Source: Terriglobales bacterium (GTDB lineage Bacteria > Acidobacteriota > Terriglobia > Terriglobales > Acidobacteriaceae). From it: a DNA stretch of 64,000 bases. The translations under genes were made by a program, and so were the position numbers. Positions 3,391-41,819 of this stretch are shown here, one piece after another. A model generated the notes under the pieces. The model searched no databases and was not told where the DNA came from. It worked only from the letters and a program-made list of their open reading frames with translations. Each line of letters opens with the position of its first letter. The first letter of the stretch is position 1. The DNA lies in NCBI GenBank assembly GCA_035691485.1, contig DASSIZ010000047.1, forward strand, positions 1 to 64,000, written 5' to 3'.

Positions 3391-3715
3391 CGTCTCGGGC
3401 CGCGCAGGGCTTTAGCCCTGGAAAGCATGCTTTTTTCGGAGACTTGTCATTTCGAGCGGGCTTCAGCCCGCAAGGAATCTCGGTTTCCTTTTCCGTCTTC
3501 TTGCCATTGCTCGCAACTCGTCGCCGCTTCTTCCTCCGCTCCCCGCCGCCAGTCAGACCGAAAACCCCAGGCTACCTGCCCAAAACCTCAGGTTATCTGG
3601 ACCTAACTCGCTGATTCCGCTCACCACCAAAGGAGCACCTATGCCGTCCCGATCGTCCGGTTTTTAGGCCCGACGACGATGTCGCGGAGCGCATCTGAAC
3701 ATGCGGAGCGACCTC
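3391..3715. repeat. Spacer with two GGCT-AGCC palindromes and a mini-ORF
   Basis: Two near-perfect palindromes of one family lie here. The first, at 3405-3420, has arms CAGGGCT and AGCCCTG. The second, at 3456-3471, has arms GCGGGCT and AGCCCGC and sits in a context (TCATTTCGAGCG ... AAGGAATCT) I associate with acidobacterial dispersed repeats. The remainder is pyrimidine-rich filler. At 3641-3667 an AAAGGAG ribosome-binding site precedes an 8-codon ORF (MPSRSSGF, stop), just upstream of the next gene. Confidence 0.55.
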
Positions 3716-32328: not shown

Positions 32329-33540
32329 CTAGCCTCCGGACAGTTTGGAGATCATGGAGAACAAAGGCATGTACAGGGAGATCACGATACCGCCGACAGC
32401 CACACCGAGGAACGAGATCATCACCGGCTCCAGCAGGGTGAGCATGTCCTTGGTGGCGGCGTCGACTTCGTCTTCATAGAAGTCGGCGATCTTCTGCAGC
32501 ATGGCATCCATGGCGCCGGTCGCTTCGCCGACGCCGATCATCTGCGTCACCATGTTGGGAAAGACGCCGCACTCCTTCAAAGGATCGACGATGGTGCGGC
32601 CTTCCTCGATCGCCTTGCGCACCTTCATGAGGGCGGTTTCCATGACCGCGTTGCCGGAGGTGCGCGCGGTGATGCTGAGCCCTTCCAGGATGGGCACGCC
32701 CGAGGTAATCAGCGTTCCCAGGGTCCGGGTGAAGCGGGCGACCGCGATCTTGCGCAGCACCATGCCGAAAACCGGCGTGTGCAGCATCATGTTGTCCCAC
32801 ACGTAGCGGCCGCGGGGATGCTTGCGGACCTGCTTGACCCCCACCACCAGCGCAATGATCACGACGAAGAACACCCACCAGAAGTGGCTGACGAGGGAGC
32901 TCAGGCTCATGACAAAGCGGGTGGGCGCGGGGAGTTCAACACCCAGGCCGGCAAAGAGGTTGGCGAAAATAGGCACGACGAACTTCAGCAGCGCACCCAC
33001 GATGAGGACGGCGATGCTAATGACCGATACGGGGTAGATCAGCGCCGACTTGACCGCCGCCCGCAGTTTCACCGCCTTCTCCACGTAGCTGGAGAGGCGC
33101 TGCAGGATGGTATCGAGGATACCGCCGGTTTCGCCCGCCTCGATCATGTTGGTGGTGAGGTCGTCGAAAATCTTCGGGTATCCGCGCATCGCGTTCGACA
33201 GGGTGGCGCCGCCTTCCACTGTCTGCCGGACCCCCGTGAGCGCCTTCTGGAAGACCGGATTTTCCTGGTTGGCGGCCAGGATCTCCAAGCACTGCACCAG
33301 CGGCAAGCCGGCGTCGATCATCACCGAGAACTGGCGAAAGAAGATGGCAATGTCCTTGGTCGCCACCTTGCCGGAACCAAAGGTGGGCATGACAAACTCC
33401 TTGCCCTTCTCCTTGATCATGGTTTCGGTGATGCGCTCGCGGCTCAAGGCCGCCTTCAAGACCTGTTTGTTCTCGGCAACCCGCTCTCCGGCCACTTTCT
33501 CGCCGGCTGCGTTCTTTCCCGAAAATGTGAAAACTGGCAT
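32329..33540 (-). CDS. pilC: Type IV pilus inner-membrane platform protein PilC
   Basis: 403 residues with two GspF domains (about 70-195 and 270-395), each with an Ile/Leu-rich membrane pair (SVISIAVLIVGALLKFVVP; VAVGGIVISLYMPLF). The duplicated signatures ETGGILDTILQRLSSYVEKA and EATGAMDAMLQKIADFYEDE are clear. PilC couples the PilB/PilT motors to pilin assembly. The start is ATG 33540. The gene order pilB-pilT-pilC on one strand suggests one operon. Confidence 0.96.
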   Translation of the reverse strand: MPVFTFSGKNAAGEKVAGERVAENKQVLKAALSRERITETMIKEKGKEFVMPTFGSGKVATKDIAIFFRQFSVMIDAGLPLVQCLEILAANQENPVFQKALTGVRQTVEGGATLSNAMRGYPKIFDDLTTNMIEAGETGGILDTILQRLSSYVEKAVKLRAAVKSALIYPVSVISIAVLIVGALLKFVVPIFANLFAGLGVELPAPTRFVMSLSSLVSHFWWVFFVVIIALVVGVKQVRKHPRGRYVWDNMMLHTPVFGMVLRKIAVARFTRTLGTLITSGVPILEGLSITARTSGNAVMETALMKVRKAIEEGRTIVDPLKECGVFPNMVTQMIGVGEATGAMDAMLQKIADFYEDEVDAATKDMLTLLEPVMISFLGVAVGGIVISLYMPLFSMISKLSGG

Positions 33541-33608
33541 GTGTACCTCGCTTAATGTGTCGCTCTACGGCTTTCGGACACGAAACCCATTGCCCGTTGT
33601 GCGATGGA

Positions 33609-34727
33609 CTATCTTCTCCCCTGCGCTGCCGCCGCATTGCTTGCCGGCTTGCTGAGTCCAGCGCCCCGATTAATCATTTCCTGTAATTCATCCGGCATGG
33701 AGGAACGCTGTATTGCCGTCTCCAGCGAGATCTGCTTGGTCATGTAGAGCGTCGCCAGCGACTGGTTGAACGTCTGCATGCCGAACTTGTCCTGGCCTGA
33801 CTGCATGGCGGAATAAATCTGGTGAATCTTGTCTTCGCGAATCAGGTTGCGCACGGCAGCGTTAGGGATCAGGATTTCCATCGCCATGGCGCGACCCTGG
33901 CCGCCGATCTTGGGCAGCAACGATTGGCACATGATGCCTTCCAGCACCAGGGACAGCTGGGCGCGAATCTGCGACTGCTGGTGCGATGGGAAGACGTCGA
34001 TCACGCGGTTGATGGTGGAGGCGGCGGAATTGGTGTGCAAGGTGCCGAAGGTGAGGTGACCGGTCTCCGCGATGCGCAAGGCGGATTCGATGGTCTCCAA
34101 GTCGCGCATTTCGCCGATCAGCACGACGTCCGGATCCTCGCGAAGCGCCGCGCGCAAGGCGTTGGAGAATGACTTGGTATCGGCGTGGACCTCGCGCTGG
34201 TTCACCAGGCAGTTCTTGTGCTGGTGCACGAACTCGATCGGGTCTTCGATGGTGATGATGTGATCGTGACGGTCGGCGTTGATCTTGTCGATCATGGCCG
34301 CCAGGGTGGTAGATTTGCCCGAGCCCGTCGGTCCCGTCACCAGGATGAGGCCGCGCGGGCGGTCGCACAATTTGGAGACGACCGGCGGCAGGTTGAGCTG
34401 CTGGAAGCTCTTGATCTCGAACGGAATCACGCGGAAGACAGCCCCGGAAGCGCCGCGCTGGTTGAAGATGTTGGCGCGGAAGCGGGCCAGCCCTTTCATG
34501 CCGAAGGAGAAGTCCAGCTCCAGGTCTTCTTCAAAGCGGTGCTTCTGCGCGTCGGTCATGACGCTGTAGGCCAGCGCCTTGGTCTCGGCCGGGGTGAGCG
34601 GCGGCATGTCCAATGGCTGCAAGTGGCCGTGGACGCGGATCTGCGGCGGCGTGTTGGTGGTGATGTGCAGGTCGCTGCCGTTCAATTCCAAAAGCTTCTT
34701 CAACAGATCGCTTAATGTGACTGCCAT
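33609..34727 (-). CDS. pilT: Twitching motility ATPase PilT
   Basis: 372 residues, the hexameric motor that retracts the pilus. Walker A GPTGSGKST, the Asp box, Walker B GEMRDLETIE and the His box GHLTFGTLHTNSA are present. The C-terminal AIRNLIRE-type motif appears as AVRNLIRED, which PilT needs for retraction. The Ala-rich end (KPASNAAAAQGRR) is variable. It follows pilB by 90 bp, and that gap is a heptad-repeat spacer. Confidence 0.96.
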   Translation of the reverse strand: MAVTLSDLLKKLLELNGSDLHITTNTPPQIRVHGHLQPLDMPPLTPAETKALAYSVMTDAQKHRFEEDLELDFSFGMKGLARFRANIFNQRGASGAVFRVIPFEIKSFQQLNLPPVVSKLCDRPRGLILVTGPTGSGKSTTLAAMIDKINADRHDHIITIEDPIEFVHQHKNCLVNQREVHADTKSFSNALRAALREDPDVVLIGEMRDLETIESALRIAETGHLTFGTLHTNSAASTINRVIDVFPSHQQSQIRAQLSLVLEGIMCQSLLPKIGGQGRAMAMEILIPNAAVRNLIREDKIHQIYSAMQSGQDKFGMQTFNQSLATLYMTKQISLETAIQRSSMPDELQEMINRGAGLSKPASNAAAAQGRR

Positions 34728-34732
34728 AGGGT

Positions 34733-34815
34733 GCGTTCTCAGTTATCGGTTATCGGTCTCAGTTACCGTTCGTTACCGGATTTGCCTCTAGCCAGTAGCT
34801 ACTGACCACTAGCCA
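34733..34815. repeat. Heptad-periodic spacer between pilB and pilT
   Basis: Words: GCGTTCT, CAGTTAT, CGGTTAT, CGGTCTC, AGTTACC, GTTCGTT, ACCGGAT, TTGCCTC, TAGCCAG, TAGCTAC, TGACCAC, TAGCCAC. The right half reverse-complemented (GGCTAGT, GGTCAGT, AGCTACT) parallels the left half with mostly C/T exchanges, which G.U pairs would tolerate in RNA. Confidence 0.55.
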
Positions 34816-34817
34816 CT

Positions 34818-36533
34818 TCAATGAACGGTTTCCCTTGCCACTTCTTCCAGCGTCGTTAGTCCCGCCATGGCTTTGACCAAGCCGCTACGCCGCAGCGTGA
34901 TCATGCCGCGCTCGATGGCTTTTTTTTTCAACTCGACCGCCGAGGCGCCGACCAGGATCAACTCGCGGATCTCGTCGTCAATTTCCATTACTTCGTACAG
35001 CCCGGAGCGGCCTTTATAGCCGCTGTTATTGCAAACGCCGCAACCCTTGCCCTTGTATACCTTGACCGTCTTCGCCTCCTCGGGTGTGAAGCCGGCCTCG
35101 ATCAAAGCTTGCGGCGGCAAGTCCACCTCCGCCTTGCACTCGGCGCAGACGCGGCGCACCAGGCGCTGGGCCACGATCATGTGGACCGAAGTCGCGACCA
35201 GGAAGGGCTCGATGCCCATGTTCATCAACCGGCTGATCGTTTCCGGGGCGCCATTGGTGTGCAGCGTGGAGAGCACCAGGTGTCCGGTGAGGGCGGCCTT
35301 GATGGCGATTTCAGCCGTTTCAAAGTCGCGAATTTCGCCCACCAGGATGATGTTCGGGTCTTGGCGCAAAAAGGCGCGGAGAGCGGCGGCGAAATTCAGC
35401 CCGATGGATTCTTTCATCTGCACCTGGTTTACGCCGGCCAACTGAAACTCCACCGGGTCCTCGGCGGTCATGATGTTGGTGTCGGGCTGGTTCAGGCGCG
35501 AGATCGCGGAATACAGCGTGTTCGTCTTCCCCGATCCGGTGGGGCCGGTAACCAGCACCATGCCGTACGGCTTCAAGATTGCTTTCTCGAACTTGACCAG
35601 CGATTCGGCCTCGAAGCCGAGCTTGGTCATGTCAAGCCGCAGGTTTTCCTTGTCGAGAAGCCGCATCACGATCTTTTCGCCCCACAGCGTGGGCAGGGTG
35701 CTGACGCGGTAATCGAGCTGCTTCTTCTTTCCCCCCAGGTTGACGCGCAACATGATGCGCCCGTCCTGCGGCAGCCGTTTCTCGCTGATGTCGAGCTTCG
35801 CCATGATTTTGATACGGCTCGTGATGGCGTCTTTGAGCTTCATCGGCGGGCTCATGATGGACTGGAGCATTCCATCCACGCGAAAACGGACGCGGTATTC
35901 CTTTTCGTAGGGCTCGACGTGAATATCGCTGGCGCCACGCTTGACCGCATCGGTCATGATCAAGTTGACCAGCTTGACGATGGGCGCTTCCTCGGCCGCT
36001 TTCTCCAGGTCGGAAAGCGCCATGTCCTCCTCTTCGGCCTGGAGTTCGACATCGGCATCGGCGCCCTCGGTCATTTCCATCATGACCCGTTCCAGATCTT
36101 CCTCATGGGCGGAGCCATACGCCTTCTCGATGCCGTCGAGAATGGAACTTTCTGAGGCCACCACGGGCTCAATGTTGAAGCCGGTCATGAACTTGATATC
36201 GTCCATGGCGAAAACGTTGGTGGGATCGACCATGGCGATGGTGAGGGAGGCGCCGACCCGGCTGAGGGGCAGGATCTGGTAGCGCTTGGCGGTCTCGTAC
36301 GGAATCAGCTTGACGACCGTGGGATCAATTTCAAAGAAGGTGAGGTTAATGGCAGGAACGCCATACTGGCGGGAAAGGAAGTTGGTGACGTCCTCATCGG
36401 AGAGATAACCCAGCTTGACCAGGATCGATCCCAGGCGGGTGCCGGAGTCCTTCTGGACCTTCAGTGCCTGGTCCAGCTGCTCCAGCGTAATTACCTTCTC
36501 TTTAACCAGAAGGTCGCCCAATCGCTGAGACAT
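34818..36533 (-). CDS. pilB: Type IV pilus assembly ATPase PilB with MshEN domain
   Basis: 571 residues, the extension motor. The N-terminus (residues 1-150) is an MshEN domain: RLGDLLVKEKVITLEQLDQA then a second RLGSILVKLGYLSDEDV, the tandem pattern that binds c-di-GMP in MshE. The ATPase core has Walker A GPTGSGKTN, GEIRDFETAE and GHLVLSTLHTNGA. A tetra-cysteine zinc site (CAEC ... CGVC) lies near residue 470. It is the first gene of the pilB-T-C-S-R group; its 375-bp upstream region carries two palindromes. Confidence 0.96.
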   Translation of the reverse strand: MSQRLGDLLVKEKVITLEQLDQALKVQKDSGTRLGSILVKLGYLSDEDVTNFLSRQYGVPAINLTFFEIDPTVVKLIPYETAKRYQILPLSRVGASLTIAMVDPTNVFAMDDIKFMTGFNIEPVVASESSILDGIEKAYGSAHEEDLERVMMEMTEGADADVELQAEEEDMALSDLEKAAEEAPIVKLVNLIMTDAVKRGASDIHVEPYEKEYRVRFRVDGMLQSIMSPPMKLKDAITSRIKIMAKLDISEKRLPQDGRIMLRVNLGGKKKQLDYRVSTLPTLWGEKIVMRLLDKENLRLDMTKLGFEAESLVKFEKAILKPYGMVLVTGPTGSGKTNTLYSAISRLNQPDTNIMTAEDPVEFQLAGVNQVQMKESIGLNFAAALRAFLRQDPNIILVGEIRDFETAEIAIKAALTGHLVLSTLHTNGAPETISRLMNMGIEPFLVATSVHMIVAQRLVRRVCAECKAEVDLPPQALIEAGFTPEEAKTVKVYKGKGCGVCNNSGYKGRSGLYEVMEIDDEIRELILVGASAVELKKKAIERGMITLRRSGLVKAMAGLTTLEEVARETVH

Positions 36534-36908: not shown

Positions 36909-38027
36909 GTGAACCGACGCACGCTCCTGAAAGGCGCCGCGTTGACCTCCGCCAGCCTGCTGTTGGAAGGCTGTGCGGCGCGACGTGTTCGGCCAGTGGC
37001 CGCAGCGGTTCCTCCGCCTATAGATCTTGCCAAGGTCCTAGTCTCGCCCGAGCGCGAAATCCGCACCACTGTGTGCCTGCGGCCGTTCCGTCCCAGTGGT
37101 TTTCGCCTGGAGCCGCAAAAACTCGACGACAAGCTTTGCGTCCACAACTATGGCCACGGCGGAGCGGGCATAACACTGTCGTGGGGGACTGCCCAGCTTG
37201 CAGCCAGCGAAATTCTCGCTTCCGGCCAGAGGCAAGTCGCGGTACTCGGTTGTGGCGTCGTCGGGCTGGCGACGGCGCGCACGCTGCAGCAGATGGGCAA
37301 AGCGGTCACGATTTACGCCAAGGCCATTCCTCCCGAAACCACGTCCAACTCAGCCGGGGGGTTCTGGTTTCCCGTCACCGTCTTCGACCGGGGCCACGAA
37401 GCACCGCTGTTCCAGCAGCAGTTCCCGCGCGCGGTGAGGCTCTCCTATACATATTTCCAGCAGTTTGTTGGGGAAGACTACAGCGTACGCTGGCTGCCGA
37501 CGTACTACCTGAACGAACACCCTTTCAACGAGACCGGAATGGTCGGGCCGAAGGGGCCGTTCGCCGATTTCGAACCAGCGGCGCGCGACCTGCAGCCCCA
37601 GCAACACCGCTTCCCGGCCGCGTTTGTCCGCGAATTCAAGTCCCTGCTTATCGAGCCGCATCATTACTTACGGGCGCTGGTGCGCGATTTTCAAGCTGCG
37701 GGCGGATGCATCCTGGTGCGAGAGTTTCGCGACGTTGCCGAGATCTCCGCCCTGCCGGAGCGCGCCATTGTCAACTGCACCGGCCTGGGAGCAAAGTCCT
37801 TGTTCTCCGACCCAGACCTGGTGCCCATCAAAGGACAGCTTACGTTCTTGTTGCCCCAGCCTGAGGTCAACTACAACCTGATTGCCGGCGAGCTGTACAT
37901 GTTTCCGCGGCGCGACGGAATCGTGCTGGGCGGCACGCATGGGCGCGGCGAGTGGAGCCTGGAGCCGGACCTAAATGCAAAGGCGCGCATCTTGGAAGGT
38001 CATGCCAGGCTGTTCAGCGGACTGTAG
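36909..38027 (+). CDS. Exported D-amino-acid-oxidase-like flavoprotein with permuted segment order
   Basis: 372 residues. An RR-containing signal with lipobox-like LLLEGC (residues 3-22) suggests Tat export and lipidation. The DAO family's C-terminal signature, RPFRPSGFRLE and HNYGHGGAGITLSWG, comes first (residues 58-68 and 79-93). The FAD-binding GCGVVG (114-119), normally N-terminal, follows, then GGFWFP and the late DAO segment GGTHGRGEWS (about 341-350), where the protein stops. In ordinary DAO the HNYGHGG segment follows that point, so this looks like a circular permutation. It likely oxidises an amine or amino acid in the periplasm using FAD. The start is GTG. Confidence 0.85.
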   Translation: MNRRTLLKGAALTSASLLLEGCAARRVRPVAAAVPPPIDLAKVLVSPEREIRTTVCLRPFRPSGFRLEPQKLDDKLCVHNYGHGGAGITLSWGTAQLAASEILASGQRQVAVLGCGVVGLATARTLQQMGKAVTIYAKAIPPETTSNSAGGFWFPVTVFDRGHEAPLFQQQFPRAVRLSYTYFQQFVGEDYSVRWLPTYYLNEHPFNETGMVGPKGPFADFEPAARDLQPQQHRFPAAFVREFKSLLIEPHHYLRALVRDFQAAGGCILVREFRDVAEISALPERAIVNCTGLGAKSLFSDPDLVPIKGQLTFLLPQPEVNYNLIAGELYMFPRRDGIVLGGTHGRGEWSLEPDLNAKARILEGHARLFSGL

Positions 38028-38032
38028 CGACA

Positions 38033-40162
38033 TTAGTGGATGGGAATTCCCAGCGCGGTCATGAATCCCCTCATCGATGCCTCATCGAGCGGGGTGGAAT
38101 TGGGATCGTCCTTCATCAGCTTCAAGGCCAGGTTGCATTCGCGTTCGGCAACGTCCGATTGTTCCCTGGTGCGAGCCAGAGAGCAGACCAGGCCGTGAGC
38201 GCTGGGACTGTCCGGCGATAGCCGAGCTGCGGTTTCCGCGTGCGCCCGCGCGAGGTCAAGGTTTCGGCCCGATTCCTGGTTGGCCAGGTTGATATAGGCG
38301 TAGGCTGCGGTCACGCTGAGGTCGAAATCTCCCTCGTAAACCAGCAGAGCGCTCCCTCCCAGCTTTGCCTTCGGTTCGCGGCCGCGAAAAGTGGCGGCAA
38401 GCCGCGCTCCGCCGAGTGCCGTGTCGAATCCCGCCAGGCTTTCACTGCTCACGATGAGCGTGCCATGGTAGTGAACCGGCGGAATCTGCTGGATCGAGCC
38501 GGACGTTTCACCGCATGGAATCCCGTAGTCCTGATTGGTGGCATAGAAAGCGCGAATGATCCAGCAGGGACTTGACGGCGTGCGGTCGACATAAGCCTTG
38601 GCCTGTTTCAGCGCCTGTCCCCAATCGCTATCCGACAGCGAAAGGTGCTTATACGTGGCACCTGGTCCACCCCAGATTTCGTTGCTATAGCTGAGGTAAT
38701 TCGGAAACGCGCGCAATGAGCTTGCGATGTGCAGCCCGAGCAAGAGGGCCAGCGCCACTTGCGCTTTTCTGCTGTGCGCCAGCAACTCGCCGGATCCCGC
38801 GGAAGCAAACAAGATGACGAACACCATCACCGGAAGCAGGTGCCGCACGCCCATATTCAATCCGGAGGTCATGGCCGATCCCAGATAGACGAGCGGAAGG
38901 ACTGCCAGGAACAGCAGTTCGCGCCGCCGCGCGCGCCAAAAACGCAAGGCGCAGCAGGACAAGGCAGCCATTACCAGCACCGCCAGGGAAAACTTAATTG
39001 CGATCGCAAGCGGGAAATAGAACCACTGTCCGCGTCGATAAAGCCGCCCCAAGATAAAGGCGGGACGGCCGACTTCCGACGTCACCACCACATCCTGCAA
39101 ACCCTTCAGGTAAGCTTCCGGCAAGAGATGTGCGTCTTCCAGCCTTGGAATCGCCTGGGCCACCGGGCCGGCGAACTCCGGCCGACCCCAACCCCAGGTC
39201 TGTGCGCCGTGTGGGCGGCTCTGGTAACGCCAGCCATAGACTGTCCACAGCACAACCAACGCAAGCAAGAGGATTCCGGCGACCGCTAACAGATTGCGTC
39301 CCATGCGCCGCCCCACCGGTTCGCCGTTCCGCTGCACGAGAGGATCGGCAACCGCCAGGATCAGCAGGATCGGCACCAGCAGCATGGTGGAGTGCTTTAA
39401 TGAGAAAGCGACACCCGTAACCAATGCCGCCAGCAGCCATCGCGCGCGCGTACGATTCACCAGGTACGCGTACAGGGCAAACACCGATGCCAAGGTTCCG
39501 AACGCCGCCGGCACGTCGGTGGCAATCAATGCGCCATGCGCCAGCAGGTTGGGTTCAAACGCCAGCAGGGTTCCGGCCACGCACGCCGCCGCAAGTCCAA
39601 ACATGCTGCGCGCAACGACCCACACGACTCCTAACAACATCACCGCGAACAGGGATGCAGCCAGGCGCGCGGAAAACAGAACACTCTCCGGGTTGGCGAA
39701 TACGAAGGCATGGCCGATGCGATTATCCAGTTCCCGGGTGTTGGGGAAGCCGCAAGCCTTGGGAAACGGATCGCGGATGCGCTGGAATAGCAGCGGGATT
39801 GCATCCACCATCTTGGCCAACGGAGGATGCTCCGGGTTCCAGCCGAAATCACCGCATGTCAGGTATCGATAGCCGGCATGGAGATGGTCAGCTTCATCCC
39901 AGGTGATCGACAACCGTCCGACGCTGGTCCACAACTGTGCGAGCAACACAAGGCCGAACGCAGCCAGTATGAGCCACTCCCAGGCTCGACGAGGGCAGGA
40001 GGCAGGCGGAACCAGGGCAGCGGCGGGCGATACGGTGTGCACTCCAACGCCGCTCGAGGGCGTGGATTGTGCCTCGATGGTCGTTTCTCCAGCCAAAGCT
40101 GCGCCTTCCCCGGAACCAGCGCCGCGCGAAATCGACGGAAGGGCACTCGACGCGGCCGGCAA
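38033..40162 (-). CDS. PMT/GT39-family membrane glycosyltransferase with C-terminal TPR-like tail
   Basis: 709 residues. About 11 membrane helices. The first periplasmic loop carries the family's acidic pair in TWDEADHLHAGYRYL, followed by WNPEHPPLAKMVDAIPLLF, typical of PMT-type enzymes that move a sugar from a polyprenyl phosphate donor. The last 90 residues form a helical, TPR-like tail (LARAHAETAARLSPDSPSAH). The first 40 residues are Ala/Ser/Pro-rich and may be overextended. It ends 5 bp from the convergent DAO-like gene. The acceptor is unknown. Confidence 0.85.
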   Translation of the reverse strand: MPAASSALPSISRGAGSGEGAALAGETTIEAQSTPSSGVGVHTVSPAAALVPPASCPRRAWEWLILAAFGLVLLAQLWTSVGRLSITWDEADHLHAGYRYLTCGDFGWNPEHPPLAKMVDAIPLLFQRIRDPFPKACGFPNTRELDNRIGHAFVFANPESVLFSARLAASLFAVMLLGVVWVVARSMFGLAAACVAGTLLAFEPNLLAHGALIATDVPAAFGTLASVFALYAYLVNRTRARWLLAALVTGVAFSLKHSTMLLVPILLILAVADPLVQRNGEPVGRRMGRNLLAVAGILLLALVVLWTVYGWRYQSRPHGAQTWGWGRPEFAGPVAQAIPRLEDAHLLPEAYLKGLQDVVVTSEVGRPAFILGRLYRRGQWFYFPLAIAIKFSLAVLVMAALSCCALRFWRARRRELLFLAVLPLVYLGSAMTSGLNMGVRHLLPVMVFVILFASAGSGELLAHSRKAQVALALLLGLHIASSLRAFPNYLSYSNEIWGGPGATYKHLSLSDSDWGQALKQAKAYVDRTPSSPCWIIRAFYATNQDYGIPCGETSGSIQQIPPVHYHGTLIVSSESLAGFDTALGGARLAATFRGREPKAKLGGSALLVYEGDFDLSVTAAYAYINLANQESGRNLDLARAHAETAARLSPDSPSAHGLVCSLARTREQSDVAERECNLALKLMKDDPNSTPLDEASMRGFMTALGIPIH

Positions 40163-40295: not shown

Positions 40296-41819
40296 TCACT
40301 TCCCTTGAGACATGCGCACTTCGTAGACGGTCGGAAGCGGCTCCGAAGTTGGACGAACGAAGCTGCGCACCAGTTCGGTGCGCGAGAAGTGGCCGAGGCT
40401 GAGCAATCGAATGCATTCGTCGGTGGCACAGGTCTCCCACGAGCGTTTCTGGCCCCAGGGGAAGCAGCTGGCCTCGATCACGCGCACCGGAAGCTGGTCC
40501 TGGAAGCCGGCGTCGATTTGCTCGCGCAGCCAGCGCATGTAATTGAGCTTTTCCGCGATCGCCTCCTTGGGATCCCGCCGGACAACAACCCCGGGAAAAT
40601 CCGGAATATCGGGCCGGAGCGTGTGAATATGGCCGTGGCCTTCGACGAGAATTTCAACATCGAGTTCCATCAGACGTTCCAGGCTGGCGAGCCACTTGCG
40701 GCTGTCGACATCCGGGTTTGGAGTCGCAAAATAGCTACCCATGAAGGCATCGCCCGCCAGCAGCAGCTTCTCCTTGGGGTCGTACAAGGCAATGTGATCG
40801 TCACAGTGGCCGGGGGTGGCCAATACTTGCAAACAGCCGGAATCGGAATCCAGGGTGTCGCCGAGTATTTTGAAAGGCGGCCGCAAATCGGGCGGCTGCC
40901 CGATTATGGTGGCGCGCACTCGTGGCAGCTTTTTGAAAGGCGACAGAAACCGCGCCGTCATCTCGGAAACATAGATGGGCGCAGCCGTCATTTGCGCCAG
41001 CCAATTCAGGTTCCCGACATGCTCTTCGTGCGCGTGCGTGGCCACAATCTTGGTGATCCTGGGCGGTCCCCGGCGAAGGTGGCGCGCCAGCGAGCGCCGC
41101 ATCTTGGGCGAGCCGGGATCAATGGCGATGCCGTCATAGAGCACCGTGGTGAACAGTTCCCCGAACAGGATGGGCACGGTGTTGGGCAAGGCACCGTTCA
41201 AGAACAGAATCGTCAGCCTGCCGCCGAGCAGTTCAAGCCGCCGGTTATAGGTCCGGACAAACGTGCTGATTCTTCCCGCGGCAGCCTTCAACGCGGCCCA
41301 CGCGACTAAGGGAAGGCGAAGCAAGAGGCCCAGCGTGTAGCACGACCAGAAGGCTCCCAGGCGCGCTTTCCGCTTGACCGTTTCGGGCTGTGCGACGCGG
41401 CATGCGCCGCCACGACACTTGCTCAGTGCGTAGCGATTGCGCGCGACAAAGCCGTACCCCAGCCGACCCAATTGACGGAACGGGAAATGCGATCCCAGCG
41501 CGCCGATCATCCACGTCGGAGGAAACAATCGCGCCAGCCGGGCAACGGCATCCCAGCCGACATAAATCCGGCCATCAGGCGCTATTACGTGCAACTGGCG
41601 CAGGCAATCGTCCAAATTGAGGCGTGGGTCCACCTGGAGCAGGACGTCCTGGGTGATGGGCAAAGCGAGGGTCTTGTGGTGGCGATCGAGAGTATTCAAC
41701 CAGGCCACGCAAGCCTGGCAGACTTCGCACTGCCCGTCGTATAGCACACGATAGGCCGCGGCGGCGGCGGCATGCATGTCATCGTGTGCTGGGACGGGTT
41801 CTGTTATTGGCGTTCCCAC
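40296..41819 (-). CDS. DCC thiol-disulfide domain fused to metallo-beta-lactamase-fold hydrolase
   Basis: 507 residues. Residues about 22-145 are a DCC/DUF393 domain with YDGQCEVCQAC (D28, C31, C34), a putative thiol-disulfide oxidoreductase. A hydrophobic stretch (about 155-182) may touch the membrane. Residues about 195-480 are a metallo-beta-lactamase fold: THAHEEHVG (H262, H264, H267, with E266 where D is usual), TPGHCDDH (H338), LAGDAF (D357) and EGHGHIH. I know of no common architecture joining these domains in this order. The substrate is unknown; a glyoxalase-II-like or thiol-linked hydrolase is possible. Confidence 0.82.
   Translation of the reverse strand: MGTPITEPVPAHDDMHAAAAAAYRVLYDGQCEVCQACVAWLNTLDRHHKTLALPITQDVLLQVDPRLNLDDCLRQLHVIAPDGRIYVGWDAVARLARLFPPTWMIGALGSHFPFRQLGRLGYGFVARNRYALSKCRGGACRVAQPETVKRKARLGAFWSCYTLGLLLRLPLVAWAALKAAAGRISTFVRTYNRRLELLGGRLTILFLNGALPNTVPILFGELFTTVLYDGIAIDPGSPKMRRSLARHLRRGPPRITKIVATHAHEEHVGNLNWLAQMTAAPIYVSEMTARFLSPFKKLPRVRATIIGQPPDLRPPFKILGDTLDSDSGCLQVLATPGHCDDHIALYDPKEKLLLAGDAFMGSYFATPNPDVDSRKWLASLERLMELDVEILVEGHGHIHTLRPDIPDFPGVVVRRDPKEAIAEKLNYMRWLREQIDAGFQDQLPVRVIEASCFPWGQKRSWETCATDECIRLLSLGHFSRTELVRSFVRPTSEPLPTVYEVRMSQGK

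Follow-up and report, generated by a model that had tools for sequence, protein, structure and literature searches.

D-amino-acid oxidase (DAO) is among the best-studied flavoenzymes. The DAAO and DASPO enzymes (Pfam PF01266; PDB 6rkf, 1kif, 2du8 and 1c0k) share an FAD-binding GxGxxG motif, a substrate domain, the arginine of an RPxRP motif and an HNYGHGG motif, with GxGxxG in the N-terminal part of the chain and RPxRP and HNYGHGG in the C-terminal part. Both segments, the same motifs and a 25-35 kDa core recur in bacterial DAOs of ordinary order, FAD strand first and HNYGHGG last, which are encoded in the phylum of the organism studied here and on Streptomyces and Nocardia plasmids (L106/L111, L107/L112, L108, L109, L115-L117, L137-L141 and L062). 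ThiO (TIGR02352), a member of the same superfamily, also has the ordinary order. Indeed, in the VIA-align rows shown the solved members of the superfamily start with the FAD strand, barring extra leading parts in MnmC and in Proteus deaminases, and a permuted order is therefore taken here as derived.

Natural circular permutations are known for saposin/swaposin and for transhydrogenase, in which termini were joined and reopened and the fold was presumably kept, as in the protein described below, although the folds differ (PMC3320104, in the part drawn on here). Engineered circular permutants have been made in another FAD protein, LucY/MurB; these are man-made and of another fold, with termini likewise joined and reopened (PMC4408115, again in part). 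A permutation survey method has yielded thousands of new permuted pairs (PMC12667903, in the part drawn on here); the terms amino acid oxidase, FAD and flavo are absent from its main text, and a permuted DAO pair could be in its data tables. We found no report of a permuted DAO in the open-access literature, a scope that leaves most subscription journals outside.

The gene described here lies at 36909-38027 on the forward strand of a 64,000-nucleotide stretch of a Terriglobales genome (the window) and is an open frame of 372 amino acids plus stop, with a GTG start and a TAG stop. The Pfam DAO model matches residues 110-371 with 120.5 bits, above its 27.9-bit cut-off, which places the protein in the DAO family. 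Both parts of the DAAO/DASPO arrangement are present, and since their order is swapped we file the protein as a permuted variant and not as an ordinary member. The earlier note, made from the letters of the sequence, had placed RPxRP and HNYGHGG ahead of GxGxxG, and its motif coordinates were confirmed in this frame: LRPFRP occupies residues 57-62, HNYGHGGAGITLSWG residues 79-93 and GCGVVG residues 114-119, and the protein ends in GGTHGRGEWS...ARLFSGL.

By hhalign and the structure model, residues 45-105 (37041..37223) correspond to the C-terminal segment of ordinary DAOs, that is, to their three strands and last helix, here placed at the N-terminus. This segment holds R58 (37080..37082), which phmmer aligns with Arg283 of pig and human DAO, and the HNYGHGG motif at H79-G85 (37143..37163), also seen in the phmmer alignment. 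In the secondary structure of the model, helix 87-105, which marks the former C-terminus, runs through three junction residues, 106-108 (37224..37232), into strand 109-113, which marks the former N-terminus. Residues 109-372 (37233..38024) then match, by hhalign and VIA-align, the N-terminal part of ordinary DAOs, with its FAD-binding Rossmann and substrate domains; they include the dinucleotide-binding motif GCGVVG (GxGxxG; 37248..37265), whose G114, G116 and G119 are present in 51/51 rows of an alignment of permuted proteins (A1). The ORFs on either side, 34818-36533 and 38033-40162, are both on the reverse strand, so the gene probably stands alone. By eye, reverse-strand ORFs at 32329-36533 resemble homologues of the type IV pilus proteins PilC, PilT and PilB, and a further one at 40296-41819 combines a thiol-disulfide-like N-terminal part with one of metallo-beta-lactamase fold.

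When the protein was compared with PDB sequences by phmmer, human DASPO (E 6.6e-30) aligned in two blocks of swapped order, query residues 108-363 with 13-265 and query residues 50-100 with 279-332, and the same swap was obtained with pig DAO (109-368 with 2-266; 57-97 with 282-325). Profile-profile comparison with hhalign used A1 (51 permuted rows), an alignment of the N-terminal segment (A2, 29 rows) and one of ordinary proteins (A3, 13 rows). With A1 against A3, window residues 109-372 paired with 11-268 of the ordinary protein L111 (E 4e-40), and with A2 window residues 49-104 paired with 268-322 of the same protein (E 9.9e-24, 49% identity). The two ranges tile L111 with a break at residue 268, and no segment is lost or doubled.

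We also built an HMM from 13 ordinary DAOs and scored permuted proteins against it before and after their N-terminal segment was shifted to the end. Unrotated, the window protein gave two matches, of 140.3 bits (model 25-279) and 57.9 bits (288-336); rotated, it gave a single stretch of 210.9 bits (model 28-335). Among the 58 permuted proteins taken from a set of 61 rows (L010, L026 and L034 being left out), rotation raised the highest score for any one stretch in 51, with medians going from 98.85 to 155.0, and did not raise it in the other seven; L032, for example, still matches in two pieces. As a reverse control, the C-terminal segment of each ordinary DAO was put first in a leave-one-out design, and the score fell in 13/13 cases. 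A second copy of the HNYGHGG segment, which the earlier note had considered might have been lost downstream, is absent from all six frames of the window.

The AlphaFold2 model of the window protein, made with A1, reached a pLDDT of 90.8 and a pTM of 0.86, with blocks covering residues 41-100 at 90-98. It contains strands at 50-60, 66-72 and 75-81 and a helix at 87-105, and the FAD strand (109-113) follows three residues on. The first 33 rows of a Foldseek search with this model were DAAO/DASPO chains. By VIA-align the best match was human DASPO 6rkf_A (Z 23.6, rmsd 2.4, 255 aligned, model 105-372 on 1-265), with pig DAO 1kif_A at Z 22.9 (model 108-371 on 1-269) and ThiO at a Z of about 18; both structure aligners are sequential, and the VIA-align rows span model residues 104-372 only and are uninformative on residues 45-103. 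Identity to the window protein in the DAAO/DASPO fold matches is 24-28%. Modelled alone, segment 37-106 had a pLDDT of 66.3, as against the values given above for the full model; this low confidence agrees with a segment that depends on the remainder of the protein and is no proof of its placement. The full model, for its part, is only consistent with residues 50-95 occupying the C-terminal position of DAO.

Judged from the sequence, it is close to certain that the protein is a DAO fold that has undergone natural circular permutation. The claim of the earlier note that the order had been swapped with nothing lost is borne out by contiguous, non-overlapping profile matches in swapped order, by the rotation test with its reverse control and by the single clade that permuted proteins form in two trees (see below). 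The sequence shows that what is ordinarily the C-terminal segment now forms the N-terminus. About three residues bridge the former termini, linking the last helix to the first FAD-binding strand, and the chain has been opened in the loop behind the helix that comes after the GG-T-x-W strand.

Relatives of the gene were found in a range of bacteria. A class-wide search matched 85/399 genomes at E 1e-3 and, at E 1e-49 or better, 57 places spread over 56 genomes. Counting only frames that hold both segments, 61 of the 62 distinct frames in the first set of relatives are permuted, the exception being the ordinary-order L062, as are 80 of the 95 in a wider set; ordinary-order DAOs are under-sampled in these counts because relatives were gathered with permuted queries. 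Phylum-wide, 28/247 genomes match at E 1e-10, some with the permuted and others with the ordinary order. The class of a Stenotrophomonas genome yielded two matches in 274 genomes, one permuted (Stenotrophomonas itself) and one ordinary, and that of a Caulobacteraceae bin 15 in 289, 14 of them permuted and one ordinary. The permuted form is thus found in Acidobacteriota, the window's own phylum, in Proteobacteria and in Nonomuraea, with carriers that include Stenotrophomonas, Xanthomonas massiliensis, Lysobacter (with a broken frame), the Caulobacteraceae bin, Niveispirillum, Kozakia, Bradyrhizobium, Rhizobium and Mesorhizobium (also with a broken frame). Some of these genes are on complete plasmids.

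Several single loci deserve mention in their own right. The frames of the permuted genes at L136:4917-5980 and in L034 are broken, and in the Mesorhizobium gene the break falls inside the GxGxxG codons and the gene is annotated as two proteins. In L007 (from position 3473 on) and in L067 the permuted gene has a partial tandem copy some 1 kb downstream, a 158-aa frame that repeats the gene's last 105 residues at 51% identity. At L117:5117-7315 (G813) an ordinary-order DAO is fused to about 366 further residues without a Pfam match at 1e-4. A mobile or phage origin was considered and rejected, with no match in the phage collection; three IMG/VR viral contigs (L160, L161 and L162) do encode relatives and may be host DNA, and by eye a ParA-like gene lies near the one in L160.

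To place both forms in the same trees, their segments were laid in one common order. In the first tree, from which near-identical rows had been dropped (97 to 93), with L136 excluded for its broken frame and only the first piece of L034 used, 77 permuted rows are split from 16 ordinary ones, including human DASPO and pig DAO, by a branch with 100/99 support, and one order change suffices in 100% of 200 bootstrap trees. The second tree, of 57 rows, combined 27 rows chosen by hand from the 77 permuted ones with 13 new ones among its alphaproteobacterial additions, and shows the same 100/99 split between 40 permuted and 17 ordinary rows. Accordingly, the permuted order forms one clade in both trees, a point that the earlier note had left to an alignment of homologues. 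Permuted enzymes from Nonomuraea, Bradyrhizobium and Rhizobium form a deep branch, separate from the signal-bearing ones in either tree. L154 groups with the signal-less enzymes; L154 (3.49 changes per column) and L084 (2.41) are long branches whose placement is unsure. L154, together with L159 (G1029:C93:13252-13707 region), is a very divergent permuted DAO (47 and 54.5 bits) from an alphaproteobacterial-class genome of 1.9 Mb, and possibly represents a second permutation or a deep branch.

Two other accounts of the unusual order can be weighed against these data. Misassembly, a wrong gene model or chance motif matches could make an ordinary DAO merely look rearranged, and the window genome is indeed a draft of 145 contigs and the frames of two relatives, L034 and L136, are broken; yet the same order recurs in most frames of both sets of relatives, in many independent genomes and on complete plasmids, and the two profile E-values are far from chance, so we reject such an artefact, whose probability we regard as negligible. 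The permuted order might instead have arisen more than once, in which case the permuted enzymes would not be one family. For this one can cite L154, which on its long branch and with its own type of signal may represent an independent event, its place being an effect of that branch length; however, a single order change is enough on both trees and in every bootstrap tree, and the break point is alike across A1. We therefore hold multiple origins to be quite unlikely and a single origin of the permuted family very probable.

The earlier note had also claimed an export signal with twin arginines and a lipobox, and had paired it with the permutation. Residues 1-22 (36909..36974) comprise a twin-arginine sequence (NRRTLLKG), a hydrophobic stretch and an imperfect lipobox, LLEGC, ending in C22 and with Glu at -2, where many relatives have LAGC, LTGC or LSGC. 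An RR pair lies within the first 22 residues in 59 of 61 permuted rows, a count that is somewhat favoured because start codons were chosen near RR motifs and that includes L035, whose chosen start is probably wrong, while L019 is cut at a contig end; RR is combined with [GASN]C in 53/61. L032-L034 have RR without the lipobox cysteine, and L061 has neither. The arginine half of the claimed signal thus stood well, and the lipobox of the window protein proved weak. As for a Tat prediction, the RR motif speaks for it, and the Pfam TAT_signal match to residues 1-19, at 14.8 bits, falls below the cut-off of 22.7. The window genome encodes both TatC (238.7 bits) and Lgt (200.7 bits). We consider the window protein likely to be exported by Tat and, with less assurance, would favour its being lipid-anchored. 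By eye, a permuted gene in another locus (L170:136-3144, G1141) lies directly upstream of tatA-, tatB- and tatC-like genes.

The pairing of export with permutation holds for most rows but not for all. In the rhizobial and Nonomuraea permuted proteins hardly any residues precede the moved segment, and inspection by eye reveals no signal peptide; L154 has a Sec-like N-terminus by eye. Since the permuted rhizobial, Nonomuraea and L061 proteins show no signal on inspection, export signal and permutation are separable.

Within A1 the residues of the moved segment are strongly conserved: R58, Y81, G82, G84 and G85 are present in 51/51 rows, H83 in 50/51 and H79 in 48/51. R58 gives the window protein the equivalent of Arg283, a substrate-binding residue of DAO. 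Y330 (37896..37898) aligns by phmmer with Tyr228 of pig DAO, and this position is Y in 24/51 rows and N in 16/51; the partner of pig Tyr224 falls in an alignment gap. The active site is thus not conserved across the family in the way it is in DAO. The window protein differs from DAAO/DASPO in its swapped segments, its RR export signal and its gap at the Tyr224 position. The best NCBIfam match is ThiO TIGR02352, at 63 bits far below the equivalog cut-off of 250.8.

A conserved neighbour of window-type genes was sought and none was found, clusters of 5-8 loci being scattered or reflecting synteny among close relatives. All four rhizobial/Nonomuraea loci (L132, L134, L135 and L136), each with a signal-less permuted DAO, carry a ThDP decarboxylase gene after the permuted one, as against none of the other 64 loci examined; the model that fits this decarboxylase best, indolepyruvate/phenylpyruvate decarboxylase, scores 222.1 and 213.5 bits, short of the 554.5 cut-off. 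A berberine-bridge-type FAD oxidoreductase gene precedes the permuted gene in both rhizobial copies tested (L132 and L135). This arrangement is an undescribed small operon on rhizobial plasmids, and the decarboxylase adjacency fits a path from amino acid to 2-oxo acid to aldehyde, a hint and not proof of amino acid oxidation. The Kozakia copy lies among genes for Beta-lactamase-fold, S9 and S15 peptidase proteins and a DAO-family gene of ordinary order, and a cytochrome c gene comes after the copy; these surroundings again hint at amino acid oxidation without proving it. Over 68 loci, some of them overlapping or refetched and with flanks of differing length, cytochrome c occurs once (Kozakia) and the S9 peptidase and beta-lactamase-fold hydrolase four times each; as linked neighbours they were set aside as too rare to build on.

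These observations bear on why the order changed and on what the enzyme oxidises. If selection had favoured the permutation for leaving an N-terminus available to an export signal, the RR signals at the start of nearly all window-type rows would agree; however, the signal-less permuted enzymes of the rhizobia and Nonomuraea form a deep branch, and we know of no obvious bar to a signal on a DAO of ordinary order, so we find this explanation improbable. A substrate other than a free D-amino acid, for example an N-substituted or peptide amine oxidised by the permuted DAO scaffold, is a more serious contender. The variable Tyr228 position, the gap at Tyr224, the closeness of ThiO among named models, albeit well under its cut-off, and the peptidase genes near a few copies would all accord with it; against it stand the retention of R58 and of the glycines of HNYGHGG, the presence of Y330 in the window protein itself, and the fact that DASPO (Z 23.6) and DAAO (Z 22-23) are the closest among solved structures. 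We thus regard another substrate as possible, if somewhat doubtful, and lean slightly towards a D-amino acid, as far as the sequence allows. For the window protein, then, we propose a permuted enzyme that would be exported by Tat folded and loaded with FAD, would probably be lipid-anchored, and would oxidatively deaminate D-amino acids, such as those of peptidoglycan or peptides, yielding 2-oxo acids, with electrons passing to oxygen or to a periplasmic carrier. To this reading as a whole, the permutant with its proposed export and function, we assign a probability of roughly 0.8.

More speculatively, the permuted DAO family, of which we found no report in print, may have a single origin that either preceded export or was unconnected with it, one branch being intracellular and encoded ahead of a 2-oxo-acid decarboxylase and a large branch consisting of Tat-exported, probably lipid-anchored periplasmic D-amino-acid dehydrogenases that feed the respiratory chain, in line with the Kozakia cytochrome c gene. 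This wider scenario we consider rather unlikely in full; if true, a textbook oxidase fold would have been both re-wired and relocated to a new compartment. What the sequences do indicate is that a textbook flavoenzyme has undergone a genuine circular permutation, which is inherited and present in more than one organism. The finding also carries a warning for annotation, in that PF01266 covers only the second part of these proteins and the generic name 'FAD-dependent oxidoreductase' hides the rearrangement. A natural permutant with relatives of ordinary order lets one ask how chain order affects folding and FAD binding and when the change took place, and its exported members would put D-amino-acid oxidation in the periplasm, adjoining peptidoglycan turnover.
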